This document shows positions 42,314-57,760 of a DNA stretch of 64,000 nucleotides, in pieces; the first letter of the stretch is position 1; each line of letters opens with the position of its first letter. Position numbers and translations under genes: made by a program. Below the pieces are notes generated by a model that was not told the origin of the DNA, made no database searches, and saw only the letters and a list, made by a program, of their open reading frames with translations. The stretch is from contig NZ_BJXA01000014.1 in the NCBI RefSeq assembly GCF_007990755.1, forward strand, positions 62,001 to 126,000, written 5' to 3'. This DNA is from Nocardia ninae NBRC 108245 (GTDB taxonomy: Bacteria; Actinomycetota; Actinomycetes; Mycobacteriales; Mycobacteriaceae).

Positions 42314-43639
42314 TCAGTCTGTTGCCGGTTCGCCGATGGCGTCGGCCTCGGGATGGGTTGCCAAGTACGCATCTCGGACGGCCGGGGTGCTTAGCACGAG
42401 AGCGCCTGCAAGCCAGGCGCGGTCGCCTCGCTGGGGATGGCGCTCACTCAGCGGTCGGGCTAGGTGGCGGGTCGCTGTTCCTGCCGGATCGCTGTCGTAA
42501 GGGTAGGCGCCCCACACTGTTGCTTCATCGACGGTGGGATTGCACCAGAATTCGTGCATCACTTCGTGGATCAATGGCCGCGCTTCCTCGGTTTCTAGGT
42601 TTTCGAGGGCGGCGGCGAACTCGTAGAGCGTGGAACGATATATGTCGAGCCCCCAGGTGTCGGCACCCAAGTTCGTCTTCGATTGAAGGATGGGCGCAAC
42701 TTCTCCCGAGGGTTCTCGGTGATAGCCGGAAACGATGCCGTGGTCACCCATGCAGAAGGTTTCGACCAGGAAGGGTGCGTCGGGAACCCGCCAGTTCAAC
42801 CCCTGTCCCACTGCCGTGTTGTAGATGAAGGCGGCGACTTTCTCGGGATCGGTCCAGCCAGTTGGGCGTGGCTCGTGACCCCACAGCAGGACGTGGGGGC
42901 GTTGCAATCCGGCTGTCTCGCAGACCTGAACGAGGGATCCGATCATTCGACCAGTCCAACCGGCATCGACCAGTCCTGTAGTTGGATCGGCGAGCGTATG
43001 TTGCACGGCGTACTCGGTCAGCAGCTCTCGGGTCCGACTGATTCGCGGCGCTGTCGCGGCGGTGACCTCGGGCGTCCGCACGAACCGACGCATGGCGGTG
43101 GCCTGCTGGTCTTGGTCCGCGCGGACGTCAGGATCCAAGGAGACGTGTGACGCGACAAGTAGCGGCTCGAATTCGCTGATCGCGAGTCCCAGGCGCGAAC
43201 ACAGGTCTGCCGCGTTGGATTTCATGAAGCTGTTGAACAACCAGGCTGCCTTGTCTAGGTTGTCGGGGTCAGTTGCTGCCAGGCTCCAGGTGAGTCGACT
43301 GCTGTAGACGTACTGCAGATCCAGGTCTACACCGATCACTGGTGCAAGTCGTCGTGCCAGCTCGTAAAACACCTGCCCGTCACGGGATAAGAACCTGAGG
43401 CGGTGGAGTCCTCGGCGCTGTGCTTCCCGCAGCATCCAGACAACACACCCTGCGAGAGCGGGAGCTGCCACGCCAGCAGCCACGTCCCGGATAACTGCCT
43501 CTCGTTCCGTCCCGGCCGCGGTCTTGGTTCGGGCTTGCTTGCTTGCATAGAGGAACTGCGCTGCTGGGTCACCGAACCGACTGGAGTGGTTCAGCATGAT
43601 CCGTTCGTAACGGGACGTTGCAATGGTTGTGTCGCGCAT
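42314..43639 (-). CDS. HAD-superfamily-like protein (surface polysaccharide type)
   Basis: The 441-residue product contains HRLRFLSRDGQVFYELARRLAP, followed by LQYVYSSRLTWSLAA and VDAGWTGRMIGSLVQV, the pattern of predicted HAD-type proteins found in glycan gene clusters, where SRDG replaces the canonical DxD region. It starts 3 nt after the stop of the STAND regulator and is therefore probably co-transcribed with it. It may be a phosphatase-like or carbohydrate-modifying enzyme; the catalytic aspartates were not confirmed. Confidence 0.6.
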   Translation of the reverse strand: MRDTTIATSRYERIMLNHSSRFGDPAAQFLYASKQARTKTAAGTEREAVIRDVAAGVAAPALAGCVVWMLREAQRRGLHRLRFLSRDGQVFYELARRLAPVIGVDLDLQYVYSSRLTWSLAATDPDNLDKAAWLFNSFMKSNAADLCSRLGLAISEFEPLLVASHVSLDPDVRADQDQQATAMRRFVRTPEVTAATAPRISRTRELLTEYAVQHTLADPTTGLVDAGWTGRMIGSLVQVCETAGLQRPHVLLWGHEPRPTGWTDPEKVAAFIYNTAVGQGLNWRVPDAPFLVETFCMGDHGIVSGYHREPSGEVAPILQSKTNLGADTWGLDIYRSTLYEFAAALENLETEEARPLIHEVMHEFWCNPTVDEATVWGAYPYDSDPAGTATRHLARPLSERHPQRGDRAWLAGALVLSTPAVRDAYLATHPEADAIGEPATD

Positions 43640-43642
43640 CGG

Positions 43643-46585
43643 TCACCATTCTTTCAGCACCGCGCCGACTCTATCCGGGGTGGCGATGTCGTGGCGATGA
43701 CAGATCGTTATGGCCGCGCCCATCAGCGGAGCGGAGTCCTCGCCCCGTTGTTCGGCCAGCCTGGCCAGGCTGGCCTGAACACGCGCAACCCACAATTCAT
43801 CGCCAAGCTCTGTGAAGATCGAGCGGGCGCAGGCTAGGGCGGCTTCCGCTGCATCGAAATTGCCTGTGTCTCTGCGTAACACACCGAGTTCCCGCAACGC
43901 CCTCGCTTCGGCTGGGCGGTCGCCGATGGATCGGAAAACCGCGAGCGCTGCCTCGACTTGATAGTCTGCGACCTCCCACTGCTCATCGCATCGGTTCAGG
44001 TCTGCCATGCTCAGTTGTGTACGCGCAGACCAACGTTCATCGCCGATACCCTCGAATATCTGCAATGCGTTCTGAAGGTCGGCTGCGGCAGCAGCCCGGT
44101 TCTCGGCGAGGCGATACGCGTCACCTCGGTTGCGAAGCGTGACACCCATGCCGCGACGGTCGGCGAGCAACTCGAATCGCGACAGGCATTCGTCGAAGAC
44201 AGCCAACGCTCCCTTGATGTCTCCTTCGTTGCGGCGCACGACTGCTATGTGCCGGAGCGCTCGGGCCTCCCAGCGTTGATCTTCGAGTCGCCGGAAAGTC
44301 GTGAGCGCCTGGGTGAACAGGCGGGCCGCCTCCTCGTTGCGCCACTGATCGCGATGGACCAGCCCATAGCGGATCAGTGTTCGTGCTTCTTCGAGCTGGT
44401 CGTTGAGACTGCGGTAGATGGTCAGGCTCGCTTCGAAATGCTCGCGGGCGTCATCCCATCGGGACAATCCACGGCTCGCGTCGGCGATGCCGTTGAGAAC
44501 ACCAGCGACGGATCGTGTGTCGCCTTCGGTTTGGACGATGTCGAGCGCAGCGGAGAAGGCTCTGATGGCGTCGTCGAGTCGTCCCTGGTATCGCCGGGTG
44601 TCACCGAGGTTTCTCATTGCGGCTGCCCACTGGCGCCGGTCGCCGATGCGCAAGAAGATCTCGGTTGCCTGGGTGAGCATGTCGACGGCTTCACCGAAGC
44701 GCCCTAGCTCGCGGTAGAGCGCGCCCATGTTCCGGAGGATCACTGCTTCGGCGTGATGATTCGCCATCTTTCGTGCTGCATCACGGGCGAGCCGATGGGT
44801 ATGGGCCCATGCTTGCCAATCGGCACGCCAGTCGAACATCGTGGGCAGTGTTTCTACGAGTTGCCAAGTGCGATCCCATAATTCAGCGTCATACGCAAGA
44901 TCCACCGCAGCAATCAAGTTGGCACGTTCAGCTGTGAACCATCCGCGTGGATCGTCTCGACAGAGTTTGTCGACTGCCGCAGTTGTGGACGTTGCGGCTG
45001 TCGCAGTTGCGGACGTGGCCGCGTGGTCGTCGTACAAGCCGGGATGCAGTGCGGCGGACGCCGCACGGACGCCGTCGGTGTACCGGCCGACGAGTCGATG
45101 GACGGCTGCGCAACGTAGGTCGGGTGCATCGAGGGTCGTGGAGCACTCGCGGGCGAAGTCTCGGATCAGATCGTGCAGCCTGTATCGGATCAGCCCAACT
45201 GCATCGGTGCCCGCGACTTCGACGAGCTGTGCGTCGACGAGACACTCCAATAGCTGCTCGGCCTCATCAACATCGACGTCGAGCAGCGCGGCGACATTCC
45301 ACGCGGGAAAGCTCGCCGCAGTCAACGCCAGCATCCGGAAAGTTGTTTGCTCCTGGTTACTGCGGCTCTGGTAGCTCAAAGCGAAGGAGGCCCGGACCTC
45401 GAGGTCGCCGGCCTTCAGCAGGTCCAAACGGCGGCTTTCGTCAGCGAGCCGGTCGGCGAACCATGAGATCTTCCACGTCGGCCTGGACATCAGGCGCGCC
45501 CCCGCGATGCGCAGCGCGAGGGGTAGATAGCCACACAGCCGGGCCACTTCGAGAACTGAATCCGGTTCTGTTGCCGCGCGCTGAGATCCGACCAGCGCCA
45601 TGAGCAGCGTGGCCGCTTGCTCTGCCGGAAGAACGTCCAGATGGATCGTGTTCGAACCAGACAGGGCTGCCATATGGGATCGGCTGGTGACAAGGACCGC
45701 GCTGGTCGCAGCACCTGGCAAGAGCGGGCGGATTTGCGTTTCGTCGGCGGCGTTGTCGAGGACGACGAGGATGCGGCGCCGGGCCAGGTGTGTGCGATAC
45801 ATCCGCGCCCGTTCGTCTGTGCCCTCCGGAATGTCGGTGCCAGCAACGCCGAGCTCACGCAGGAAGCCCGCCACGACTTCGCCAGCTGCTAGTGGATGAG
45901 GTTCGACGCCACGAAGGTTGGCGTAAAGCTGACCGTCAGGAAATGCGTGGGCAACCATGTGCGCGACATGGATCGCGAGGGCTGTCTTGCCAACACCGGC
46001 CTGACCGGAAACCGTCGCGATCGGTACCGCGGTCCTCGTGGTGGAGGCCAGGACGTTGATCAGCTGCGCGATCTGGTCGTTGCGGCCGGTGAAGTCGTCG
46101 GTGTCGGGAGGCAGATGTCTCAGCGCTCTGGAGCCGCTGTCACTGTCCGACGACCTTCCGTGCCCGGTGTCGCTGCCCTGCGCCGATCGTTCCAGCGCCA
46201 TCCGTACAGACGGCGCATAGTCCGAAGCCCAACCCAGCTGGACCGGATTCGTCCGAAACAGGCGACACAGCAGGTCCTGATAGTCCCAACTCGGGCGCGA
46301 TCCGGCTTCCCACTCCATCCAGGACCGGGCGACAAGCCCTCGTTGCTTGAGCTTCTCGCGTCGACACATCAGATGGAACTGATCGACGGCCTCGGCGACT
46401 GTCCATCCCCAGGCGAGCCTGTGTGACTTGAACAGGTTGTGCCCGCATTGTTCAGCGATCTCGTGGGCCATGGCGTGCAGGAGTTCGATCCGCAGATCAT
46501 CGCCGCGCCGTAGGTCGTGGAGATATCGGCTACGGATTCGGTCGGCGCAGCTGTCCTCACGACGCCCAGATCCGTTCTCGCCCAT
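43643..46585 (-). CDS. STAND/NB-ARC regulator with TPR repeats
   Basis: From ATG 46585 the product is 980 residues. An N-terminal helical region with an XRE-like stretch (LKQRGLVARSWMEWEAGSRPSWDYQDLLCRLF) is followed by an NB-ARC ATPase (Walker A VSGQAGVGKTALAIHVA, Walker B RRILVVLDNA, then LVTSRSHMAAL and GYLPLALRIAGA). A winged-helix segment comes next, and a long TPR superhelix makes up the C-terminal half. This is the layout of AfsR-like regulators lacking the SARP domain. The frame is open to 46684, but only 46585 fits the family start. It is divergent from the peptide biosynthetic locus and probably controls it. Confidence 0.8.
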   Translation of the reverse strand: MGENGSGRREDSCADRIRSRYLHDLRRGDDLRIELLHAMAHEIAEQCGHNLFKSHRLAWGWTVAEAVDQFHLMCRREKLKQRGLVARSWMEWEAGSRPSWDYQDLLCRLFRTNPVQLGWASDYAPSVRMALERSAQGSDTGHGRSSDSDSGSRALRHLPPDTDDFTGRNDQIAQLINVLASTTRTAVPIATVSGQAGVGKTALAIHVAHMVAHAFPDGQLYANLRGVEPHPLAAGEVVAGFLRELGVAGTDIPEGTDERARMYRTHLARRRILVVLDNAADETQIRPLLPGAATSAVLVTSRSHMAALSGSNTIHLDVLPAEQAATLLMALVGSQRAATEPDSVLEVARLCGYLPLALRIAGARLMSRPTWKISWFADRLADESRRLDLLKAGDLEVRASFALSYQSRSNQEQTTFRMLALTAASFPAWNVAALLDVDVDEAEQLLECLVDAQLVEVAGTDAVGLIRYRLHDLIRDFARECSTTLDAPDLRCAAVHRLVGRYTDGVRAASAALHPGLYDDHAATSATATAATSTTAAVDKLCRDDPRGWFTAERANLIAAVDLAYDAELWDRTWQLVETLPTMFDWRADWQAWAHTHRLARDAARKMANHHAEAVILRNMGALYRELGRFGEAVDMLTQATEIFLRIGDRRQWAAAMRNLGDTRRYQGRLDDAIRAFSAALDIVQTEGDTRSVAGVLNGIADASRGLSRWDDAREHFEASLTIYRSLNDQLEEARTLIRYGLVHRDQWRNEEAARLFTQALTTFRRLEDQRWEARALRHIAVVRRNEGDIKGALAVFDECLSRFELLADRRGMGVTLRNRGDAYRLAENRAAAAADLQNALQIFEGIGDERWSARTQLSMADLNRCDEQWEVADYQVEAALAVFRSIGDRPAEARALRELGVLRRDTGNFDAAEAALACARSIFTELGDELWVARVQASLARLAEQRGEDSAPLMGAAITICHRHDIATPDRVGAVLKEW

Positions 46586-46883
46586 ATTCTTTACGCCCCC
46601 CACATTGCGTTCCCGCGACACGTGATGGCCTGTACGGTAACCCGCCCTACCCGACTGCCGCATGGCATCGGGCTCGACGAGCACGCAAGAGTGCCGCGCA
46701 GGTGAGGTGGCGTCTCGGTCTGGCTGAGGTCACCGCCGATGCGGTGGCTGTCAGCAGCGAAAAGGTCCTGCGGTGTCACCTCTCGCGTGTGAGGCGCGCT
46801 CTCGTCTATCCGTGGAGCCCGGTGCCCGGCGACCCTGGACTGTGCGCTTTGACCGGCACGCAACCACTTTGAAGGGAGGACCA
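46586..46883. other. Divergent intergenic region of the biosynthetic locus
   Basis: About 300 bases between the leftward regulator and the rightward precursor candidate. It must hold both promoters. TTGACC at 46849-46854 resembles a -35 box, but no -10 box is found at the right distance. No repeat or riboswitch-like structure was recognised. Confidence 0.4.
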
Positions 46884-46946
46884 ATGACCAAGCGACCCTG
46901 GCGTCGACCACTGTGGCGTGCTCGAAATGTCCGGACCCACTGCTGA
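46884..46946 (+). CDS. Candidate ribosomal peptide precursor, 20 residues
   Basis: A 20-codon frame with one of the strongest ribosome-binding sites in the region (GAAGGGAGGA, about 3 nt before ATG). The peptide is very basic, contains PWRRP and PLWRA as an imperfect repeat with two Trp, and ends in THC. It is the first frame of an operon-like set encoding a PqqD-like recognition protein and two radical SAM enzymes, where a precursor gene is expected. It overlaps no other likely gene. Its function is inferred from position, Shine-Dalgarno strength and composition; it could also be a leader peptide or meaningless. Confidence 0.45.
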   Translation: MTKRPWRRPLWRARNVRTHC

Positions 46947-47037
46947 TACCCCTCGCCCATCGCGGTGTGCGGATCGCCGACGCCGACCATTCGCACACCG
47001 CAACCAGCGCTACCAACCGGATAGGCAAGGAAGCACA

Positions 47038-47328
47038 TTGACTCCCAAGCAGCTTGCAGACATCAGTGTGGCGCTACAACCACATGCGGTGTGTCGGAGG
47101 ACAACCTCCGGCTTGACGATGCTCTTCGATCGTGCCAAGGGGGTGATGTACGAGCTCAACGAATCCGCTTCAGCCATAGTCGAACTGCTCAGCACCGATC
47201 CCATGCCAGTCGGCCAGATCGTCGACACCTTATGCGCACAGTTCGAGGCGCCGAGCGAGGAGATCGCCGCCGATGTGCAAGTGTTCGTCGACGATTTCCT
47301 CGAAGCTGGCATGTTGAAGACGAGCTGA
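47038..47328 (+). CDS. PqqD-like peptide recognition protein (RRE)
   Basis: TTG at 47038 follows AAGGAAG and gives 96 residues that fit the PqqD family end to end: VALQPHAVCRRTTSGLTMLFDRAKGVMYELNESASAIVELLSTDPMPVGQIVDTLCAQFEAPSEEIAADVQVFVDDFLEAGML. An upstream in-frame extension to 46918 is unlike the family and lacks a ribosome-binding site. PqqD-like proteins bind precursor peptides and present them to radical SAM enzymes. The radical SAM gene follows after 5 nt. Confidence 0.85.
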   Translation: MTPKQLADISVALQPHAVCRRTTSGLTMLFDRAKGVMYELNESASAIVELLSTDPMPVGQIVDTLCAQFEAPSEEIAADVQVFVDDFLEAGMLKTS

Positions 47329-47333
47329 TCATC

Positions 47334-48503
47334 GTGCAGCACAACATGCTTCTAGCGTGGCCGGATGATTTTCAGCTGACCGAAAACCCTATACCGATCC
47401 TCGTCCAGCTCGGTCTGACCTATCGCTGCAACCTCAAGTGCACCCACTGCTACGCCCTGTATCGGCGCTCCAGAGACGAATTCACCCTCACTGAGATTGA
47501 AAGCCTTGCCGATCAACTTTATGACGCGGGTAGCGCGAGCCTGGTCTACTCGCACGGGGAGAACATGATTCGGCGCGACTTCCACGATGCTGCCACGATC
47601 TTCCGTGACCGCGACTTCTATCAGACGCTGATGCTCAACGGGTTCTATGTGCGCACGCCCGATGATGCGGCGCGACTTGTCCAATCCGGCATCAACCGAA
47701 CAATGGTGTCCATCGATAGCATCGACCCGACAGTGCACGACAAGGTCCGGGGCAAGTCCGGCGCGTTCGACGTCGCCGTCCGGGCACTGCGTCTGCTGAA
47801 GGACGCCGGGATACCCACCGTCGGCTTCTCTACGACGATCGACACTCACAACTACGGGCAGGTCGAGCGAATCGCGGAATTCGCCCGCGACCTTGGTATT
47901 GACGCGGTCAGCTTCATGCAGAACCGCTACAACCTCACCAATGTCTTCGATCGCGCTCTCTGGCCTACCTACCAGGCCGTATGCCGCACGCTGTATCAAC
48001 TGATTCTCGACAATCAGGGAGTGCTGGACGTCTACACCCACGACCCCTTTATGCTCACCGTGCTCGATGACCGGCTGACCGATCGTCGTGCCCGCGAAAC
48101 CTTCATCGGCTCGAACCTGTGCAACGTCGCAACCAGCATGGTCTCGATCGACCCGATCGGAAACGTCTCCGGGTGCAACTTCATCGAGGAAAGCATCGGC
48201 AATGTCCGGGACGAGCCCTTCCAGCAGATCTGGGACCGGCTGGTCAACCGGTATTCCGACCGAATCGAATCTCCGTCAGGCCCGTGCGGGTCATGTTCGG
48301 CACTTGGTCCGTGCATGGGTGGTTGCAAAGCTTTTCACTACAACGGCAAGTATGACGAGCGCTGCGGTGAGCAGCGGTTTGTCGACCAGGAGTCGCATCA
48401 GATCGGCACCAGCGACAAACCGATTCCGGTGAGCGCACCGGGTCGAGCGCCCGGCGTCTTCGTCGGACTGCCCCGTGTCCGGGTGAGCGAGGAGACACGA
48501 TGA
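47334..48503 (+). CDS. Radical SAM/SPASM peptide-modifying enzyme
   Basis: About 389 residues. The [4Fe-4S] motif TYRCNLKCTHCYA places C32, C36 and C39 in CxxxCxxC. The barrel continues with GINRTMVSIDSIDPTVHDKVRG. The C-terminal region has SPASM-type cysteines (SNLCNVATSMVSIDPIGNVSGCNFIEESIGN and GPCGSCSALGPCMGGCKAFHYN...C), which should hold auxiliary clusters. Such enzymes crosslink or cleave peptide side chains in RiPP pathways of the PqqE, MftC and sactipeptide type. GTG at 47334 or ATG at 47346 may be the start. Directly follows the PqqD-like gene. Confidence 0.85.
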   Translation: MQHNMLLAWPDDFQLTENPIPILVQLGLTYRCNLKCTHCYALYRRSRDEFTLTEIESLADQLYDAGSASLVYSHGENMIRRDFHDAATIFRDRDFYQTLMLNGFYVRTPDDAARLVQSGINRTMVSIDSIDPTVHDKVRGKSGAFDVAVRALRLLKDAGIPTVGFSTTIDTHNYGQVERIAEFARDLGIDAVSFMQNRYNLTNVFDRALWPTYQAVCRTLYQLILDNQGVLDVYTHDPFMLTVLDDRLTDRRARETFIGSNLCNVATSMVSIDPIGNVSGCNFIEESIGNVRDEPFQQIWDRLVNRYSDRIESPSGPCGSCSALGPCMGGCKAFHYNGKYDERCGEQRFVDQESHQIGTSDKPIPVSAPGRAPGVFVGLPRVRVSEETR

Positions 48504-49894
48504 GGGTCCTGTTCGTGAATCCTCACTACACCCACGACCCTCGCACGCTGTTGCTGCACCCGCCACTGGGCTACGCCTATATGGCCCGCGCGCTGAAGAT
48601 GGCCGGCCACGACGTCGTCCATGTGGACCTGCCATTTGAGGGCAACAGCCCAGAGGCGTTGATCCCACGTTTGGATGATCTGCGGCCGGACCTCATCGGA
48701 GTCACCTCTGTTGCTCAAAGCTACTTCCATGCGGTCGAATTGGCCCGCATCGCTCGATGCTGGAACCCGACTGTCCCGGTCGTGTTCGGCGGACCGCACG
48801 TGTCCTTCATCGCCACCGAGTGTCTCCAGCGGCATCCCAGCGTCGACTACGTGCTGCTGTTCGACGCCGAGGAAAGCATCGTGTGCCTAGCCGATGCTCT
48901 CGCCGCGGGCGCTGCCTCGCACGATCTCGAGAAAGTCCCGGGCCTCGTCTTCCGCGACGGCTCCGGTATACGTGCGACAGCGCCAGCGCCCCCCGAAATG
49001 CAGCTGGACCGATACGGACAACCGGACCGCTCAATCTTCGACCTGCGCAACTACCTGGACTACGACTACGAAACCGTGGTGATGACCGCTCGGGGATGTC
49101 CCAGCCGTTGCACCTTCTGCTCCACCACCATTGCCGGGCGCACCGCTCGCTGGAATAGCCCCGCTCACGTGGCCGACGAGATGGAAGCCGTTGCTGAGAT
49201 GGGGTTCTCGTCGATCTTCTTCGGAGATGACACCTTCTCCGGCGACCCCCGACGTGCCGTGGCAATCTGCGAAGAAATCAGTCGACGCAGGCTGGCGATC
49301 CCCTGGACAAGCAACATGCGCGCCCAAGACGCACGCCCCCACGTCCTCGATGCCATCCGTGAGGCGGGCGCATATCGGGTGTTCGTCGGCTTCGAATCGA
49401 TCCAGGAGCATACCCTTCGATTGGTCAAGAAGGGAACTTCGCCCGCGCGGCTGTATAAAACCGCCCAGCGGATCATGGATGCCGGGCTGGAACTACACGC
49501 CTCCTTCATCGTCGGGGCACCCGGCGACACCCCGGAAACACTTTCGGCCACCATGGATTTCATCAGGTTGGTCAACCCGACAGTCGCCACATTCAACGTG
49601 ATGGAGCCGCGCCCCGGGACCGACCTGTTCGCCAACCCGGCCAAGTACGGGATCACCATTCCTGACCGCTACTGGTATGAAACAACCGACTGGCTGCACC
49701 TGCCGGTATGTCACAACGATTCGATGTCCGCGACCGACATTCGCGACTGGGTCAGCCGCTGCTACGACGAGTTCTGCGACCCCGACTTCCGATCAACCGA
49801 TCACCTCCAACGCCTCACCCCCGTTCGTAAGCATTGGGACGAAGCCGCAGAAAAGGTTCAGCGCCATCTCCCCCTGACAACGGCACGCCGATGA
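48500..49894 (+). CDS. B12-binding-domain radical SAM enzyme
   Basis: ATG overlaps the preceding stop (ATGA). Residues 1-150 form a cobalamin-binding-like Rossmann domain (MRVLFVNPHYTHDPRTLLLHPPLGYAYMARALKMAGHDV, PDLIGVTSVAQSYFHAVELARIA, VPVVFGGPHVSF) without the classical DxHxxG loop. The radical SAM barrel follows with TARGCPSRCTFCS (C200, C204, C207), GDDTFSGDPRRAVAICEEI and FESIQEHTLRLVKKGT. Class B enzymes of this kind often methylate unactivated carbon. The substrate here may be the peptide or a derivative released from it. Confidence 0.85.
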   Translation: MRVLFVNPHYTHDPRTLLLHPPLGYAYMARALKMAGHDVVHVDLPFEGNSPEALIPRLDDLRPDLIGVTSVAQSYFHAVELARIARCWNPTVPVVFGGPHVSFIATECLQRHPSVDYVLLFDAEESIVCLADALAAGAASHDLEKVPGLVFRDGSGIRATAPAPPEMQLDRYGQPDRSIFDLRNYLDYDYETVVMTARGCPSRCTFCSTTIAGRTARWNSPAHVADEMEAVAEMGFSSIFFGDDTFSGDPRRAVAICEEISRRRLAIPWTSNMRAQDARPHVLDAIREAGAYRVFVGFESIQEHTLRLVKKGTSPARLYKTAQRIMDAGLELHASFIVGAPGDTPETLSATMDFIRLVNPTVATFNVMEPRPGTDLFANPAKYGITIPDRYWYETTDWLHLPVCHNDSMSATDIRDWVSRCYDEFCDPDFRSTDHLQRLTPVRKHWDEAAEKVQRHLPLTTARR

Positions 49895-50898
49895 CTATCC
49901 GGATCGCGCTCGTCGGCGCTGGCCTTGCCGCTCGCTCACACGCCTTGGACATAATCACCGATCCGACAATGGAACTCACCGGAGTCACTGCGAGGAGCGC
50001 TGCCTCAGCCCGAGCGTTCACCGCCATATTCGGCGGGACCATCTACCCTGACGTCGAGGCAATTGTCGATGACGATCGCGTCAACGCTGTCGTTGTCGCA
50101 GTACCGCCCTCCGCGGTCCTCGGAGTCACCGAGCAACTAGATATCAACAAGCCCTGCCTCGTCGAGAAGCCAATCGTGACAACCGACAGCGAACGCGACC
50201 GCCTGTCGAACCTTGCCCAGCGATTCACTCACCTCATTGCGCCCTTCAATCGCCGCTATCAGCCCCACATCCGTCAAGCCGCCAACATGATCGAGTCTGG
50301 CCTGATCGGAAACGTGGTCGATGTCAATGCCCAGTGGCGGGGTCCGTACCGTTCACGCTTCGCCAACGACGGCGGAACCTATCGCGGCTCTGCCGGGCCC
50401 CGACACGGGGTACTCGTCGACACCGGTAGTCATGCACTCGATCTGATCTCGATGCTGGTCGGCTACACCCATCCGATCCACGTGCTAGGCGGGCTCACCT
50501 GTAACGACCGCGGAGCCGACATAGCAGCCGAGCTCGAGATCGCCGCCGGAACCACAATCCGTCTGACGGTGACCGATGACCCGAACGCTCCCGAATGCGG
50601 CGGCTGGGCCGTCGTGGTGAACGGTGCCGCCGGATCGCTAACCGTGGACAGCCGTGGCAGCCAGGTCCGCACGACGAGCTCTGGCACGCTGCAAGGCTTT
50701 CGCGCTGAACCGATGCACCGACCTGTCAGCGATCTTGCCCGGATGGCGGACGGTATTGCCCCGCTCGGGTCGCCGATGGCCGAGGTCTTGACCGTCAGCG
50801 ACGTCATCATCGCCGCCCACGACCACAACCAACAGCGCCGAGCCCGATGGAAACGTCCCCGCGGCAAAGCACTGGGCCGACTCAACGGCGCCTGCTGA
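49891..50898 (+). CDS. Gfo/Idh/MocA-family oxidoreductase
   Basis: ATG overlaps the radical SAM stop. The 335-residue product has the NAD(P)-binding start IRIALVGAGLAARSHA, the family motif NKPCLVEKPIVT (E-K-P), and GVLVDTGSHALDLISMLVG holding the catalytic-region Asp/His. The family oxidises or reduces sugars, cyclitols and related small molecules, which suggests that part of the final product is not peptide or that a side chain is redox-modified. Confidence 0.85.
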   Translation: MTIRIALVGAGLAARSHALDIITDPTMELTGVTARSAASARAFTAIFGGTIYPDVEAIVDDDRVNAVVVAVPPSAVLGVTEQLDINKPCLVEKPIVTTDSERDRLSNLAQRFTHLIAPFNRRYQPHIRQAANMIESGLIGNVVDVNAQWRGPYRSRFANDGGTYRGSAGPRHGVLVDTGSHALDLISMLVGYTHPIHVLGGLTCNDRGADIAAELEIAAGTTIRLTVTDDPNAPECGGWAVVVNGAAGSLTVDSRGSQVRTTSSGTLQGFRAEPMHRPVSDLARMADGIAPLGSPMAEVLTVSDVIIAAHDHNQQRRARWKRPRGKALGRLNGAC

Positions 50899-50916
50899 CT
50901 CGAAGGGGAGCCCTCT

Positions 50917-51636
50917 GTGCAACAACCGCAGTTCGATTTCACACATAAGCCGCCGGAAGTGGGTGCATGTCGAACTACGTCCGTGGTGCCGCTCGGTGAC
51001 CGCGTTGGCGCCGTCCGCGTCGAGCAGTTCTTCAATGACCAAGCCACAGCATTGCTTACACCGTTTCTGCACGGCGACCTTGTCTATGAGCGGGATGAGA
51101 TCGGCGATCAGAAGCTCGTCAGTCGCGCGTCACGCCAGGGTGATTTGCCCGACGACCCGCTCGTTCAGCGTTCCTCGACACTCGATGCTGACTCGGCTCT
51201 CGCTGTGTTGAATACATTCGGCAGTTCCTGGTTCATAGAGCAGCTCGGGGATTGGCTCAATACCCCCCTGCGAATGCTGCGGCCACCGACGCCCTACCGC
51301 ATGGACGTCGGGGACTACGTCGAACCACACGATGACCACCCTTCACCGGAATTCCGGCTATCGGTGACCTACAACCTGACCGCCAACTGGCAACCAGGCG
51401 ATGGCGGTGAAACCGTTGTCGGCCTTGTCGAGGCGGTCACCGAGTTCGATCACCCCGATTTCCCATTCCCACTCAAGACATGGACCCTCGGCACTGGTGC
51501 GCAGTCACTTGAACCCGTCTTCAATTCCGTGTTGCTGCTCCCACTGTCAGACGAGCAGGCCCATGCCGTCCGCCCGGTTCGCCGAGCATCGCGGTACTCG
51601 ATCACCACCCTCTACGGCGACAGGACCTCCCATTGA
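50917..51636 (+). CDS. 2-Oxoglutarate/Fe(II) oxygenase
   Basis: GTG with AAGGGGAG upstream; 239 residues. The facial-triad start HxD is in DYVEPHDDHPSPEFRLSVTYNLTANWQPGDGGETVV, and the distal His and Arg are in EQAHAVRPVRRASRYSITTLYG, the layout of prolyl-4-hydroxylase-like 2OG enzymes. It would hydroxylate, desaturate or crosslink a biosynthetic intermediate. The stop overlaps the next oxygenase by TTGA. Confidence 0.82.
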   Translation: MQQPQFDFTHKPPEVGACRTTSVVPLGDRVGAVRVEQFFNDQATALLTPFLHGDLVYERDEIGDQKLVSRASRQGDLPDDPLVQRSSTLDADSALAVLNTFGSSWFIEQLGDWLNTPLRMLRPPTPYRMDVGDYVEPHDDHPSPEFRLSVTYNLTANWQPGDGGETVVGLVEAVTEFDHPDFPFPLKTWTLGTGAQSLEPVFNSVLLLPLSDEQAHAVRPVRRASRYSITTLYGDRTSH

Positions 51637-52553
51637 CTGCGTCTCTGCTGACCGAGGACGAGCGACACCACTGGGACACCTTCGGCTACCTGCATTTCCG
51701 CAACGTGCTTGCACCGAACGAGACACATCAGCTGCATCGTTCATTGACAGCGGTGCACACCCGCTCCACCGACACTGCGGACCGGCACCAGCACTGGGAG
51801 GATCTGTTCGACGCTGGCAACGATCGGGATCTGAGTATCGCCAACGCCGTCTCACATTGTGACGAGATCGGTTCTCTCCTAGACCATCCCGGCGTCTTCG
51901 GGAAGATCCTCGGTCTCATGGGACCGTATGTGCAGGTTCTGGGATCCGAAGCGTTCTTCCGTTACCCCTACTCCGAGCCGTTGGTCGACTTCCACACCGA
52001 CCAGGGGCCATCGCTACGCCAAGCCGCGCCCGCCGCAGGCAAAGAGATCCAGCTCAAGATCCAATTCTTCCTGACCGATCTAACCCAACCGGACCACGGA
52101 AACTTCACTGTCGCACCAGGTTCACACCGCGCAGACTTTCCCGGCAAAGTCGCCTACACCCAAGTGAACGACCCAGTCCAGATCCTGGCCAACGCCGGGG
52201 ATGCGGTGATCTTCCCTTTATCGCTGGGTCACGGCGTCGCCCGGAACCATTGCCCGGCCACCCGAGTCAGCGTGGTGCTCAGATATGGCCAAATCTTCTG
52301 CCGCCCAGTCGATTACTGGAAGATGCCAGCCGAGGTTTTGAACCGGCTGTCGCCGCGCCAGCGACGACTACTCGGCGACCTCGGGGCACGTCAACGCCCC
52401 GGAGACGTCTACGGCCAGATACCTGACCAGCTGAAGCTGATCTACGGGCAGGAGTGGTTAGCCACCAGGGATGCGCAACTAGATCTTCACGCGGGCCACC
52501 ATGACCAAGCTGCGTACGAGGACCTGTCGCGAGGAGCAAGTCAGCATGCCTGA
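51633..52553 (+). CDS. Phytanoyl-CoA dioxygenase (PhyH)-family oxygenase
   Basis: TTG start overlapping the upstream stop; 306 residues. HxD is in PLVDFHTDQGPSLRQ, the distal His in FPLSLGHGVARNHCPATRVSVVLRYGQ, and GNFTVAPGSHRADFPG is typical for PhyH enzymes. Bacterial members of the family hydroxylate or halogen-like functionalise small molecules in natural product pathways. It ends 8 nt inside the carbamoyltransferase start. Confidence 0.85.
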   Translation: MTASLLTEDERHHWDTFGYLHFRNVLAPNETHQLHRSLTAVHTRSTDTADRHQHWEDLFDAGNDRDLSIANAVSHCDEIGSLLDHPGVFGKILGLMGPYVQVLGSEAFFRYPYSEPLVDFHTDQGPSLRQAAPAAGKEIQLKIQFFLTDLTQPDHGNFTVAPGSHRADFPGKVAYTQVNDPVQILANAGDAVIFPLSLGHGVARNHCPATRVSVVLRYGQIFCRPVDYWKMPAEVLNRLSPRQRRLLGDLGARQRPGDVYGQIPDQLKLIYGQEWLATRDAQLDLHAGHHDQAAYEDLSRGASQHA

Positions 52554-54324
52554 AGTCGTACTGGGAGTGAATCTCACCCGGACCAGCGACGGCATTCCCC
52601 TCGACGATGGTGCCGCGGCACTACTCGAAGACGGCGTGGTGACGGTGGCGATCGCCGAGGAGCGCCTCGTGCGACGCAAACACGCAGGCGGCGTCGTCAA
52701 CGCCGTGCGCTACTGCCTTGCCACTCGCGGACTGGAACTGCACGACGTCGATCGTGTCGCTGTCAGCCTGTGTTGTGACCTACCGCCCGAGCCTGCGATG
52801 GCGTTGTCTCAGCTGAGATCCGAAGGACTTGCCGTCCGCGAAGACCAACTGGTCGTCGTTCCCTCGCATCATCTTTCTCACGCAGCCAGCGCGTTCTACC
52901 CGAGCCCGTTCGAAGACGCCGTGGTGATCGTGGCCGACAACGAAGGCACCATCATCGGCGATCGAACACGAACCCACTACTGGCACAACCGACTCGAACG
53001 CACCAGCGTCTTCATCGGGCGCGGAACCGAACTACAACTCTTGCGCCGCTATGGTGACGAGCCCGGACAGCTCAGCCTCGGTGCAACCTACAACCACTTC
53101 ATCAAGTGGCTAGGGTTCCGGACTCACCATGAGGCTGGCCAAGTCATGGCGCTGGCCGCGTACGGGAGCGGCAAGCTCAGCAGCGTCGAGATATTCACCT
53201 CGATCAACGATGGCTTTCGTTGCCTTCTACAGCCAGCCCTGCTTACCAACCAGGTCGAGGAGCATAAGACCGGTCCGCCTGACGAATTCGATATCGAGGC
53301 CGCACGACTCCTGCAGGCTGACGCAGTCCGAGCCCTGATCATGGAGCAGTCCGGCATCGATATCGGCGCCGGTCGCAGTTCCTGCTACGAGCCCGATCAG
53401 ACCCAATGTGACGTCGCGGAGCTGATCCAATCCGAACTACAGCATGCCCTCGTCGAGCTCGTGCGGTCCACCATCGACGAGACCGGCATCCAGCGAGTCT
53501 GTCTGGCAGGAGGCGTCGCTCTGAACTGTGTGGCAAACACGATGATCGCCCAGTTGAATGAGATCGAGGAGCTCTACATCCAACCGGCCGCAGGCGATGT
53601 CGGGCAACCACTCGGAAACGCGCTGTTGGCATATCACCACACGAAAAGGCGTCCTCGGCACTGGACGATGCCGACATGCGCGCTGGGCCGCTCTTACCCC
53701 ACATCAGAGGTCGACGCTGTCCTAGAGCGATGCTCAGACCGGATCGCTACCGAGACGATCGACGATCCAGCAGCGACCGCCGCCCTGCTTCTCACGCAGC
53801 AGTTGACTATCGGATGGTTCAGCGGAGGAAGCGAGTTCGGCCCCCGTGGGCTCGGACGCCGCAGCGTGCTGGGCGATCCCCGATCCGCCGAGACAAAAAC
53901 CCGGCTCGACAACCTTCACAAACTTCGGGCACCGTTTCGTCCCTATGCACCGAGCGTCCTAGCTGAGGAAGTTTCCGCCTGGTTCGACGTCGACGATCGG
54001 TTCACCCGAACTGCGGCGCAACCAATGTCGGCCATGCTGGTGGCACCCAAGCTGCGGGAAGACAGATCCCATCTGGTTCCAGCAGTTGCCTTTACCGACG
54101 GCACCGCACGACTACAGGCCGTGACCGCCCATGAAAACCCGCTCTACTACAGACTCATTCGCCACTTCGCCAGGCTCACCGGTATCCCGATGGTCCTCAA
54201 CACCTCTTTCAACGCCAGCGGTGATCCTGTTGTCGAGACCCCGGAAGATGCCATAGAAAGCATGCTCAAAATGCGGTTGGACGCGCTGATCATCGACCGT
54301 CGACTGGTGCGCGCGAAGGGATGA
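52546..54324 (+). CDS. NodU/TobZ-type O-carbamoyltransferase
   Basis: A 592-residue two-domain enzyme. The Kae1-like N-terminal domain shows VLGVNLTRTSDG, AIAEERLVRRKHAGG, the metal-binding VPSHHLSHAASAFY and VIVADNEGT, and later VCLAGGVALNCVANTM and PAAGDVGQPLGNAL. The C-terminal YrdC-like domain shows GWFSGGSEFGPRGLGRRSVLGDPR and MVLNTSFNASGDPVVETPEDAI. It uses carbamoyl phosphate and ATP to carbamoylate a hydroxyl, presumably one installed by the neighbouring oxygenases. ATG at 52546 has GAGGAG upstream. Confidence 0.92.
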   Translation: MPEVVLGVNLTRTSDGIPLDDGAAALLEDGVVTVAIAEERLVRRKHAGGVVNAVRYCLATRGLELHDVDRVAVSLCCDLPPEPAMALSQLRSEGLAVREDQLVVVPSHHLSHAASAFYPSPFEDAVVIVADNEGTIIGDRTRTHYWHNRLERTSVFIGRGTELQLLRRYGDEPGQLSLGATYNHFIKWLGFRTHHEAGQVMALAAYGSGKLSSVEIFTSINDGFRCLLQPALLTNQVEEHKTGPPDEFDIEAARLLQADAVRALIMEQSGIDIGAGRSSCYEPDQTQCDVAELIQSELQHALVELVRSTIDETGIQRVCLAGGVALNCVANTMIAQLNEIEELYIQPAAGDVGQPLGNALLAYHHTKRRPRHWTMPTCALGRSYPTSEVDAVLERCSDRIATETIDDPAATAALLLTQQLTIGWFSGGSEFGPRGLGRRSVLGDPRSAETKTRLDNLHKLRAPFRPYAPSVLAEEVSAWFDVDDRFTRTAAQPMSAMLVAPKLREDRSHLVPAVAFTDGTARLQAVTAHENPLYYRLIRHFARLTGIPMVLNTSFNASGDPVVETPEDAIESMLKMRLDALIIDRRLVRAKG

Positions 54325-55115
54325 CGATGTTCGATGCCGAGAACATCGCCGCGCAACGCGAGGCTGAGTACTACGACCTCGTCACCGACTGGCGCCACGA
54401 TGCCGACTTCTTCACAGCTCTCGCCAAAGAACACGGCGGCCCCATCCTGGAACTCGGATGCGGGACCGGCCGAATCACCCTGCAGATTGCCCGGACAGGA
54501 ATCACGATCGAGGGCCTCGACCTGGGAGTGGAACGACTCCGCATCGCAGAGGCCGCCAACAGCGCACTGCCTCCGCAGATGCAAGCCCGGTTCCATCACG
54601 CCGACATGCGGACCTTTGTCCTCGATCACACATTTCGCATGGCAATGTTTCCCTACCGAGTGCTGCAGGAGCTGACCACGGTCGCCGACAAGATGGATTG
54701 CCTTCGGCAGGTCCACGCTCACCTCGACCACGACGGGCTCCTTCTCATCGACAACTACTCTCCCTCCATCCCGTACCTAGCTGCCGACCCAAGTCACTGC
54801 ACAACCAGTTGCGAGAAGCTCGGACCGGCCGGCGAAACGATCCGATACACGCAACTCGTGCTCTCCCGCGACTACAGCAACCAGACTCAACAACTGCAGG
54901 TCGTCTACGACATCAGCTATCTGGACGAGTCGACCGAGCACTTCGTCATCCCCTACGAAACGAGTTACATGTTCCGATTCGAGCTTGAGCACCTGCTGTC
55001 GCGATGCGGATTCACCGTCTGCTCTGTGTGGGGCGGGTACGGCTTCGAACCGTTCGCAGACGATTCCCCCGGAGAACTGATCGTGCTTGCCCAACGCGCC
55101 GACCAGCCGATGTAG
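54321..55115 (+). CDS. Class I SAM-dependent methyltransferase
   Basis: ATG overlaps the carbamoyltransferase stop (ATGA). Motif I is PILELGCGTGRITLQIARTG and the following acidic residue is in IEGLDLGVERLRIAEAA. The 264-residue fold matches the methyltransferase-25/11 group. It probably performs N- or O-methylation late in the pathway. Confidence 0.85.
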   Translation: MTMFDAENIAAQREAEYYDLVTDWRHDADFFTALAKEHGGPILELGCGTGRITLQIARTGITIEGLDLGVERLRIAEAANSALPPQMQARFHHADMRTFVLDHTFRMAMFPYRVLQELTTVADKMDCLRQVHAHLDHDGLLLIDNYSPSIPYLAADPSHCTTSCEKLGPAGETIRYTQLVLSRDYSNQTQQLQVVYDISYLDESTEHFVIPYETSYMFRFELEHLLSRCGFTVCSVWGGYGFEPFADDSPGELIVLAQRADQPM

Positions 55116-55187
55116 GCCACCGCCTACCATCTCCGATGTACCGCGAGCATCCCCGCGGTGAGGAATCGAACGAGCGAAGGACCACTG

Positions 55188-56456
55188 GTGAAAGCCGACA
55201 ACAGCCCCGCCCGCGGAATGAGGGACCTGCTCCCCGCCGACGTCGCGACCCGGGACCATGTGCTGGAGGCAATCACGAGGACCTACCGCGATTTCGGTTA
55301 CCAACGCATCGAGACACCAGCACTGGAAGACATCAATCGGCTGCAAGGCGGCCAAGGCGGCGAAAACGAAAAGCTGATCTACCAGGTGCTCAAGCGCGGC
55401 CTGCCCGAGGAACCCGAGCCCGGTACGCAAATCCGGGACATGGTCGACCTCGGTCTGCGGTTCGACCTTACGGTCCCGCTGACTCGGTTCTACGGCAACA
55501 ATCACGCTCAGCTGCCAACACCGTTCCGATCTCTACAGATCGGACCTGTCTGGCGAGCCGAACGACCACAAAAAGGCCGTTTCCGTCAGTTCTACCAATG
55601 CGACATCGACATGATCGGTGAGCCCACCGTCTTGGCAGAAGCCGAGCTCATCGAGGCAACAACCGCAGCCCTGGCCGCAGTCGGACTGGACGACCTCACC
55701 GTCCGTCTCTCCGATCGCCGCTTCCTGACCGCCCTCGCAGCCGATGCCGGACTACCCGAGCAGTCCTGGGATCGGTTCTTCATCGTGCTCGACAAACTCG
55801 ACAAGATCGGCTGGGACGGAGTCCGTGCCGAACTCGATAACGCCGGAATGCCCTCCGACACAACCACAGTCGTTATCGACAAGATCGACAGCCTCAACGA
55901 CGTCGCTGGCGACAAACTCGCCGATACGCTCACTGACACCCTGCCTGGTCTGTCGAGCGAAGTGATCGCCGACATCGCGACCACCACCGCGAGTCTGGAT
56001 CGGCTCTCAGCACACCGATCACTGAAATGGCAGTTCGACCCCACACTCGTCCGCGGCATGGGCTACTACACCGGGCAGATCTTCGAGATCACCCACCCGG
56101 AGATGTCCAGCTCGGTTGCCGGCGGTGGCCGATACGACAAGCTGATCGGCCGTTCTCTCGGCAAGGACGTCCCGGCCTGCGGGTTTTCGATCGGATTCGA
56201 GCGCATCGTCGGCCTGCTGAGTAACGAGGCCCAGCGACATGCAACAGCCGTCCTCGCTGATCCCGACATTGCCGTCGCCGACGTCCTCGCGGTCGCGCGT
56301 GATCTGAGGTCTCAAGACCGCGTGGTCGAAGTCGTACGTCGAAGCGGCAAGCTTGGTGCGCAACTGAAGCGACTTCAAACTGCCGGGTTCGAAACATTCG
56401 TGACGATTGAGAGCGACGGAGGAACGATCGTCGTCAGCGAGGAACGAACCGTCTGA
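55188..56456 (+). CDS. Histidyl-tRNA synthetase paralogue
   Basis: GTG at 55188 has AAGGA 6 nt upstream; 422 residues. Class II motifs are present: GMRDLLPADVATRDHV, motif 2 GPVWRAERPQKGRFRQFYQCDIDMIG, the histidine loop RGMGYYTGQIFEITHPEM, motif 3 GFSIGFERI, and a short C-terminal anticodon-binding-like domain. RGMGYYTG differs from the usual RGLDYYTG. It ends the operon, before a terminator. It may be a resistant copy protecting the producer, may supply His-tRNA for tRNA-dependent chemistry, or may be unrelated to the pathway. Housekeeping use seems less likely given the context. Confidence 0.88.
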   Translation: MKADNSPARGMRDLLPADVATRDHVLEAITRTYRDFGYQRIETPALEDINRLQGGQGGENEKLIYQVLKRGLPEEPEPGTQIRDMVDLGLRFDLTVPLTRFYGNNHAQLPTPFRSLQIGPVWRAERPQKGRFRQFYQCDIDMIGEPTVLAEAELIEATTAALAAVGLDDLTVRLSDRRFLTALAADAGLPEQSWDRFFIVLDKLDKIGWDGVRAELDNAGMPSDTTTVVIDKIDSLNDVAGDKLADTLTDTLPGLSSEVIADIATTTASLDRLSAHRSLKWQFDPTLVRGMGYYTGQIFEITHPEMSSSVAGGGRYDKLIGRSLGKDVPACGFSIGFERIVGLLSNEAQRHATAVLADPDIAVADVLAVARDLRSQDRVVEVVRRSGKLGAQLKRLQTAGFETFVTIESDGGTIVVSEERTV

Positions 56457-56519: not shown

Positions 56520-56894
56520 TCAGCGCGCGTCGAACTCGCCATCCGCGACGCCCTTCGTCCACGCTTCCATCTCGTCAACGTCGAACTCGAACTTGACCGG
56601 GTGGCCACGGGCGTCGACTCCATGGAAGGTCGCTGCGCTATCGGCGTGCAGTTCGATGGCGACCGCGTCCTGGACCTCGCCAGAAGCGGCGCTGAGGGCC
56701 AGATGCCGGACGGCAGGCCAATGCGAATCCGCGAAGGAGATGGTGGGCTGCCCCGCTGGGTTATCTGCGTACTCGGCGTCCTGCTTGCTGTCTTGGATGA
56801 GCACGAGGTTGCCTTCGCAGGCGATCGCTACACAGGTCTGCTCTCCACCGCTGTACGAACTGATCCGCCTCTTGATTGTGCTCACACTATTCAC
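56520..56894 (-). CDS. DUF397-family protein
   Basis: A 124-residue product with the family pattern RRISSYSGGEQTCVAIAC...VLIQDSKQDAEYADN...TISFADSHWPAVRHLAL. DUF397 proteins act as antagonists or partners of the adjacent XRE-DUF5753 regulators (WhiJ-type pairs). The C-terminal extension (TFHGVDARGHPVKFEFDVDEMEAWTKGVADGEF) is longer than usual. Its start overlaps the regulator's stop by 4 nt. Confidence 0.85.
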   Translation of the reverse strand: MNSVSTIKRRISSYSGGEQTCVAIACEGNLVLIQDSKQDAEYADNPAGQPTISFADSHWPAVRHLALSAASGEVQDAVAIELHADSAATFHGVDARGHPVKFEFDVDEMEAWTKGVADGEFDAR

Positions 56895-57760
56895 CCTATC
56901 TGACGTGCTATTTGCCCGATTAGATCCAAGGATCCCTCACGGTCGAGAGCAATCGCCTGCACCTGCTTGTACTTGTAAGCCAGCTTGTTCACGTCCTCTG
57001 GGTCTTCGACGATCTCACCCCAGATTGCAGACTCAATCCAGCCGAGGGTCGGCAATCGCCCGGACTCGAAGTCAAGCAGGTGATAGGTCGCCGAGTTGAG
57101 GCTCGCTACCGCTCCTCCGGCCTTGAACGGGACGATCCGCAGGTCCAGTCGATCAGGATGTTCGTCCACCAAGTCATGCAGATGACGCAGCTGTCCGCGA
57201 TGAATTTCGGGGCCACCGACTTCTTGCATCAAGGCTGCCTGACCCATCACTACCAGCAACTTGTCGATCGGGTCTGGGCCGGTGAGTAGGTGTCCCCGTT
57301 CAGTACGAACAGCAACGCGCTGATCCACCTCGGTCGGGAGGCTGATCGTGACGGTCGAGCTGACCAGGTCTCGGGCGTAGTCCTCAGTCTGTAACAGACC
57401 AGGCACAACGTTGTTCTCGAATGTGCGGATGCTCTGTGCTCCAGCCTCCAGGCCGTAGAACCGCATGAGAGTGTCGGGGAACAGCCCCGAGTACTTCGCG
57501 TAAGGGCGCGGTCCTTTCGCGATCTCACGCAGCTCAAGCATCTCTGCCCGCTCGGCCTGGTCGAACTCCAGATACCTGATCGCAGTCTCAAGCTTGTCCT
57601 TCGCGAGAACGCCCCTGCCGTTCATGACCAGCGAGACGTACTGCGGAGTGAAGCCGAGCTCGCCTGCGAGGGATTTCGCGGTGACGCCTCGGAGCGCGGC
57701 CTGATCGCGGATGCGCTTCATCAGATCCCAGTTGGCGACCGTGGGAGATGTCGTTCGCAT
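56891..57760 (-). CDS. XRE-family regulator with DUF5753 domain
   Basis: The 289-residue product begins with an HTH (LRGVTAKSLAGELGFTPQYVSLVMNGRGVLAKDKLETAIRYL). DUF5753 follows, including FENNVVPGLLQTEDYARDLV, EVDQRVAVRTERGHLL, LLVVMGQAALMQEVGG and YHLLDFESGRLPTLGWIESAIWGEIVEDPEDV. It forms the usual translationally coupled pair with the DUF397 protein. The pair regulates development or secondary metabolism in streptomycetes; its target here is unknown, and the adjacent biosynthetic operon is one candidate. Confidence 0.88.
   Translation of the reverse strand: MRTTSPTVANWDLMKRIRDQAALRGVTAKSLAGELGFTPQYVSLVMNGRGVLAKDKLETAIRYLEFDQAERAEMLELREIAKGPRPYAKYSGLFPDTLMRFYGLEAGAQSIRTFENNVVPGLLQTEDYARDLVSSTVTISLPTEVDQRVAVRTERGHLLTGPDPIDKLLVVMGQAALMQEVGGPEIHRGQLRHLHDLVDEHPDRLDLRIVPFKAGGAVASLNSATYHLLDFESGRLPTLGWIESAIWGEIVEDPEDVNKLAYKYKQVQAIALDREGSLDLIGQIARQIG

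Follow-up and report, generated by a model that had tools for sequence, protein, structure and literature searches.

In the 64,000-nucleotide stretch of Nocardia ninae NBRC 108245 analysed here (the window; contig NZ_BJXA01000014.1, positions 62,001 to 126,000, from a genome of 9.7 Mb), ten plus-strand genes at 46884-56456, several of them overlapping by 4 bp or similar, probably belong to an undescribed family of ribosomally synthesized and post-translationally modified peptides (RiPPs), whose product would be a peptide-derived inhibitor of histidyl-tRNA synthetase (HisRS) and in which a HisRS of foreign lineage, encoded in the same cluster, would confer self-resistance. Three observations from sequence comparison carry this reading, i.e., a near-invariant precursor peptide, a set of genes inherited together with it, and the separate origins of the cluster HisRS copies. 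Taken as a whole, the cluster suggests a peptide-derived antibiotic aimed at the loading of histidine, presuming that all genes serve one product. The preliminary description of the locus had proposed a RiPP-like pathway and is supported in this, as the small open reading frame (ORF) is near-invariant in two phyla and the core genes travel together; the arrangement it had named as contrary evidence, no conserved small ORF and the PqqD and radical SAM (S-adenosylmethionine) genes apart from the rest, is the opposite of what was found. Its ten plus-strand genes and their families were confirmed by Pfam and NCBIfam scans.

The precursor MTKRPWRRPLWRARNVRTHC, 20 residues long and encoded at 46884-46946 on the plus strand behind a good Shine-Dalgarno sequence (GAAGGGAGGACC-ATG), had been listed as a candidate only and proved to be real. 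Its C-terminal consensus, WRRPxWRARNVRTHC, is present in all 13 maturase-bearing loci examined, one of them from Bacteroidota, and the full motif across these loci, window included, reads WR[RK]P-[QLM]-[WS]-RARN[VI]RTHC, preceded by an N-terminal part that is variable in length and sequence. A RiPP-type conserved precursor is thus encoded inside the cluster in 13/13 loci, and because of this recurrence the small ORF is not due to chance. Over the last 15 codons, all locus pairs together gave 529 synonymous versus 59 non-synonymous codon differences, a descriptive count and no test, as the pairs are not independent, with a plain direction. The ORF lies ahead of pqqD in nine loci and ahead of the oxygenase gene in the four from Nonomuraea, Saccharothrix, Lentzea and Mucilaginibacter. 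It is hardly credible that it is a regulatory leader (attenuator) and not a substrate: the ORF is short and located just upstream of the operon, but it has one His codon and no codon run, contains a WxxP motif, keeps its sequence in the four loci where it precedes the oxygenase gene, and is conserved as protein and not as DNA, and on this protein-level conservation the attenuator was rejected. The single His of the peptide is invariant and penultimate, adjoining the C-terminal Cys, which agrees with a histidine-like inhibitor and proves nothing. The sections of PMC12710340 covered here report a W/Y/LxxP/L/I recognition sequence for groups of PqqD-like domains, and the invariant WR[RK]P of the precursor fits the W/Y/LxxP motif. 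The following gene (47038-47328, plus strand, preferred start TTG 47038) encodes a PqqD-like peptide recognition protein (RiPP recognition element; PF05402, E 1.2e-16), so a recognition domain and a matching leader motif occur together at the sequence level.

The genes for PqqD, the SPASM radical SAM enzyme, the B12 radical SAM enzyme, the Gfo/Idh oxidoreductase and HisRS are found together in 13/13 genomes; in N. seriolae, HisRS is on a separate contig (L031), together with the methyltransferase gene and a partial carbamoyltransferase gene. The SPASM maturase (47334-48503, plus strand, preferred start GTG 47334; PF04055, PF13186) shows 46-82% identity to the window copy in nine other aligned rows, and CxxxCxxC and seven additional Cys are invariant in all 10 rows. 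The B12-binding radical SAM enzyme (48500-49894, plus strand; PF02310, PF04055), with BchE as its top NCBIfam model under the cut-off, has CxxxCxxC in 12/12 rows. They are followed on the same strand by the Gfo/Idh/MocA oxidoreductase (49891-50898; PF01408; preferred start ATG 49891 in an ATGA overlap), present in 13/13 loci, and by the first 2-oxoglutarate (2OG)/Fe(II) oxygenase (50917-51636; PF13640, 2OG-Fe(II)_Oxy_3), which we count to the core and which is present in 11/13 loci; it was not found in the locus of a metagenome-assembled genome (MAG; L014), and the N. seriolae locus (L006) ends at a contig edge. In N. beijingensis (L013, 8649-9808) the SPASM match is split over two frames, and this cluster may be broken or misread.

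The SPASM protein was used to scan 84,980 species, by a method that detects close relatives only, and led to ten loci, i.e., five from Nocardia, one each from Nonomuraea, Saccharothrix, Lentzea and Mucilaginibacter, and one from an actinobacterial MAG; a search of the genus Nocardia added two more, giving 13 loci with the window. When counted with a SPASM profile at a threshold of E 1e-70, the enzyme was present in 1 of 396 Actinomycetota (N. ninae itself), 8 of 150 Nocardia, 2 of 346 genomes in the family of Saccharothrix (both already known) and 1 of 296 Bacteroidota; within the Mucilaginibacter family it was 1 of 251, the same known locus as in the Bacteroidota count. Such a distribution is that of a rare and probably transferred trait. 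A plasmid search returned 11 records with SPASM proteins of only about 28-31% identity.

The last gene of the cluster (55188-56456, plus strand, preferred start GTG 55188) encodes a second HisRS, scoring 311.9 bits with TIGR00442 (cut-off 286.75); a HisZ-type regulator was rejected, as TIGR00443 gave 184 bits against 271.65. The preliminary description had listed this paralogue without a role. Its presence stands, and it is now best read as a probable self-resistance copy, a reading that points to HisRS as the target. A second HisRS was detected in 10/10 genomes from the species scan and in the N. ninae genome; among 21 sampled genomes of its class, 20 gave a single HisRS match and N. ninae two. 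In the HisRS tree (83 rows), the cluster copies form three lineages, each placed with or among non-cluster HisRS. Type N comprises eight Nocardia copies and adjoins L091 and the second copy of the MAG; type B comprises Nonomuraea, Saccharothrix, Lentzea and the MAG and adjoins L094 and L107; type M is the Mucilaginibacter copy, located among classical bacterial HisRS; the resident enzyme of Mucilaginibacter falls into the other group, which is eukaryote-like. Those actinobacterial residents that the tree includes are classical. The cluster copy stands apart from the resident in 10/10 genomes whose resident is in the tree, which left out the residents of G527 and G460; the other copy of the MAG is partial and type-N-like, and its status as resident is uncertain. 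The split into three groups is firm, the exact place of type M less so. Between Nocardia and Nonomuraea, the maturases are about 70% identical and the cluster HisRS 27%.

The relatives L091, L094 and L107 are the sole HisRS found in their genomes (G016, G031 and G235, 97-100% complete), and these two lineages are therefore able to charge tRNA. All three lineages conserve motif 2 and the HisA region, whose roles, like that of motif 3, are general knowledge for HisRS, and each of the four distant copies scanned has the anticodon domain. Type N has motifs 2 and 3 and an LRxDLTVP motif of the eukaryote-like kind, and its HisA reads RGMGYY as in L091. Judged from these motifs, the cluster copies resemble functional HisRS acquired intact, and not worn or re-tooled ones, and what a spare synthetase would be, a catalytically complete second copy unlike the resident, is what the alignments contain, except that type B is without the motif-3 Arg. 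The tree of the SPASM and B12 enzymes (12 rows, with two branches that are long and few forks that are strongly supported) requires two changes of HisRS type, the minimum for three types, with type N as one clade. Of 150 Nocardia genomes, nine have a type-N HisRS, i.e., the eight bearing maturases and G552, where a 19.5-kb stretch contains HisRS, the methyltransferase and a carbamoyltransferase matched from residue 132 onward only, with no PqqD match, no radical SAM match and no precursor motif in that stretch. Production lost and HisRS kept is the expected leftover of a resistance gene; the finding is explained equally if the distal end was retained by chance.

Further HisRS-like genes were observed in Saccharothrix G006, which has four in total; two of them lie about 10 kb apart off the cluster contig (L060, C45 120000-138500), one on a very long branch. 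Near the Saccharothrix cluster, a protein of 343 aa that contains a class II synthetase core domain is encoded on the minus strand (L010, 16433-17661).

We propose that the PqqD protein would bind the WxxP motif and present its substrate, the peptide ending ...RARN(V/I)RTHC, on which the SPASM enzyme would act first and the B12 radical SAM enzyme next, with the oxidoreductase and a 2OG oxygenase completing the common core. Clade-specific enzymes could then decorate this core, in the window PhyH, the carbamoyltransferase and the methyltransferase. The mature C-terminal part, with the sole His beside the C-terminal Cys, would be the product and inhibit HisRS, and the producer would survive by means of the insensitive cluster HisRS of foreign lineage. 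If so, producers keep their immunity by acquiring whole synthetases from foreign lineages, and this would be a RiPP family for which purely genomic data predict the molecular target. The action of two radical SAM enzymes on a near-invariant 15-residue peptide also offers a compact system for enzymology.

Several points weigh against the HisRS-inhibitor reading. We infer the product, the target, the chemistry and the resistance function of HisRS from the genes, and the scanned genes, which are part of those in the loci, included no recognisable exporter or leader peptidase. The HisRS tree was accompanied by long-branch and uneven-composition warnings (Mucilaginibacter branch 1.27), and, as the maturase tree contains only two changes of HisRS type, exchange is rare and not rampant. 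The C-terminal part of type N is shorter, with 82-94 residues after motif 3 versus 108-114 in 10 residents (89 in the sole-HisRS relative L091), and the motif-3 Arg lacking in type B is likewise lacking in its sole-HisRS relatives L094 and L107. The HisRS of G552 may have survived by chance. Many actinobacterial genomes outside the class have two HisRS-like matches, so that a HisRS duplicate or a HisRS-like relative by itself is nothing unusual in the phylum. Moreover, an aminoacyl-tRNA synthetase in a cluster can be biosynthetic, as SbzA is according to the sections of PMC12945691 covered here, and a double role is a live rival.

This rival, in which HisRS would (also) activate histidine or supply His-tRNA for ligation to the peptide, we consider unlikely. 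The presence of the copy in 13/13 genomes speaks for it, and the same sections of PMC12945691 give precedents in SbzA and in AcmD, which supplies Ala-tRNA. However, three HisRS lineages serve homologous maturases, which demands only an activity that the resident enzyme already gives; G552 retains HisRS without maturases; and none of the 30 Pfam-scanned proteins contained a transferase domain of the PEARL, GNAT- or Fem-like kind (nine operon proteins, the regulator, 19 proteins from related loci and the product of 42314-43639), which represent part of the neighbouring genes. It is more doubtful still that the cluster makes a redox cofactor or metallophore like pyrroloquinoline quinone (PQQ) or mycofactocin, with HisRS as a stress-tolerant spare. 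In these pathways the precursor is modified near its C-terminus, and their logic of PqqD, SPASM enzyme and small invariant precursor resembles the one seen here, where the SPASM enzyme reaches 118 bits against the mycofactocin maturase model. Nevertheless, the scores are far under the cut-offs of the cofactor models, and membership in either pathway was rejected (PqqE 89 bits versus 381 and PqqD 32 versus 46; MftC 118.5 versus 265). The B12 radical SAM enzyme, the 2OG oxygenases and HisRS are additions to that scheme, a foreign HisRS is not called for by a cofactor, and the sporadic occurrence given above (1/396 Actinomycetota, 8/150 Nocardia, 2/346 in the Saccharothrix family, 1/296 Bacteroidota) does not fit it either.

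Returning to a HisRS inhibitor, microcin C is a related case, a RiPP that is processed to a non-hydrolysable aspartyl-adenylate, which acts as a blocker of aspartyl-tRNA synthetase, as stated in the part of PMC7136475 considered here. Both would start from a short ribosomal peptide and target an aminoacyl-tRNA synthetase, but here radical SAM chemistry, HisRS as the target and protection by a spare synthetase would be involved; no ThiF/MccB domain was seen in the 30 scanned proteins, and membership in the microcin C type was rejected. We can envisage, tentatively, a radical-SAM-built counterpart, in which host peptidases would release from an Arg-rich carrier a modified His-Cys terminus, which would block HisRS as a mimic of histidyl-adenylate. 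If true, it would be the first natural product against HisRS of which we know. A review of synthetase inhibitors names, in the part covered here, histidinol and crystallographic fragments for HisRS (PMC4695845), and no natural HisRS inhibitor was seen in the portion of the open-access literature surveyed. No description of the present system was found in the open-access papers searched; it may be in print elsewhere.

From the sections of PMC12945691 covered here, AcmD, an extra alanyl-tRNA synthetase encoded in the ascamycin cluster, has a higher resistance than its canonical counterpart, and extra synthetases such as AcmD and the isoleucyl-tRNA synthetase SbzA serve in resistance and in biosynthesis. 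The likeness lies in an extra synthetase within a biosynthetic cluster tied to self-resistance; unlike here, these are not HisRS, and here the copies come from three lineages. Neither the AcmD nor the SbzA cluster is known to be a RiPP cluster. Pearlins, described in the same source, resemble our system in that the product is built on the C-terminal end of a scaffold peptide, but the C-terminal Cys is genetically encoded here, and pearlin membership was rejected, as the 30 scanned proteins have no LanB-like PEARL ligase domain.

The remaining operon genes differ between loci. The PhyH-type 2OG oxygenase (51633-52553, plus strand; PF05721), confined to Nocardia loci, is present in 7/7 of those that reach that far, window included. 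The NodU-type carbamoyltransferase (52546-54324, plus strand; PF02543 and PF16861, Carbam_trans_N/C) and the SAM methyltransferase (54321-55115, plus strand; PF13649; top NCBIfam daptide_MTase, 74 bits versus a cut-off of 175) were seen as full genes in three loci only, those of the window, N. miyunensis and N. seriolae; G552 retains a remnant. The preliminary description had suggested looking for co-occurrence of PqqD, SPASM and carbamoyltransferase genes; the first two do co-occur in 13/13 loci, and the carbamoyltransferase, restricted in full to three Nocardia loci, is accessory and was rejected as a core enzyme. A 73-residue match to its N-terminus lies near the Saccharothrix cluster (L010; E 5e-7). 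Clusters without the carbamoyltransferase are accompanied by a conserved trio of asparaginase, PCC-domain protein and helix-turn-helix (HTH) regulator (L007, L008, L013, L058, L059), on either the precursor or the HisRS side. The loci of Nonomuraea, Saccharothrix, Lentzea and Mucilaginibacter (L009-L012) encode thymidylate-kinase-like proteins and AAA_28 proteins, which we take to be NadR-like kinases; L009 and L011 share a DUF6687 protein, whose fold prediction was unusable (predicted local distance difference test, pLDDT, 32), and the MAG locus has a TrpD-like protein (79 bits versus a cut-off of 199).

The unit continues leftwards on the minus strand through two genes that accompany the carbamoyltransferase and methyltransferase in the window, N. 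miyunensis (L005) and N. seriolae (L006). One is an NB-ARC/TPR regulator (43643-46684; Pfam NB-ARC and TPR), divergent to the operon, 61-67% identical to its counterparts and with HaaT as top NCBIfam model (443 bits versus a cut-off of 1125). The other, 3 bp away on the same strand (42314-43639), encodes a 441-aa protein found in these three loci only, with 65-67% identity between the window copy and the others and no Pfam match at E 0.01. A profile match of its residues 63-221 to the Bcs3 capsule multienzyme (8a0c, E 8e-8), Foldseek matches of a low-confidence model (pLDDT 59) to 8a0m/8a0c and the ribofuranosyl transferase 7shg, and what we take to be a motif resemblance to phosphoribosyltransferases weakly suggest that it is phosphoribosyltransferase-like. 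Together with the TrpD- and kinase-like accessory genes it suggests a nucleotide-like part in some variants of the product; no nucleotide-type accessory genes were found in the other five Nocardia loci.

The part of the window at 1-36250 reads as a prophage, as 8 of 9 scanned proteins match phage families, including DNA methyltransferases, a helicase, terminase, portal, major head protein and tape-measure/endolysin proteins, and the endolysin gene is about 6 kb from the left edge of the cluster. Directly after the HisRS gene, a DUF397-like/HTH-DUF5753 regulator pair is encoded on the minus strand (56520-57760), and for the window genes beyond HisRS on that side, scattered relatives occur in L007 and in no other locus.

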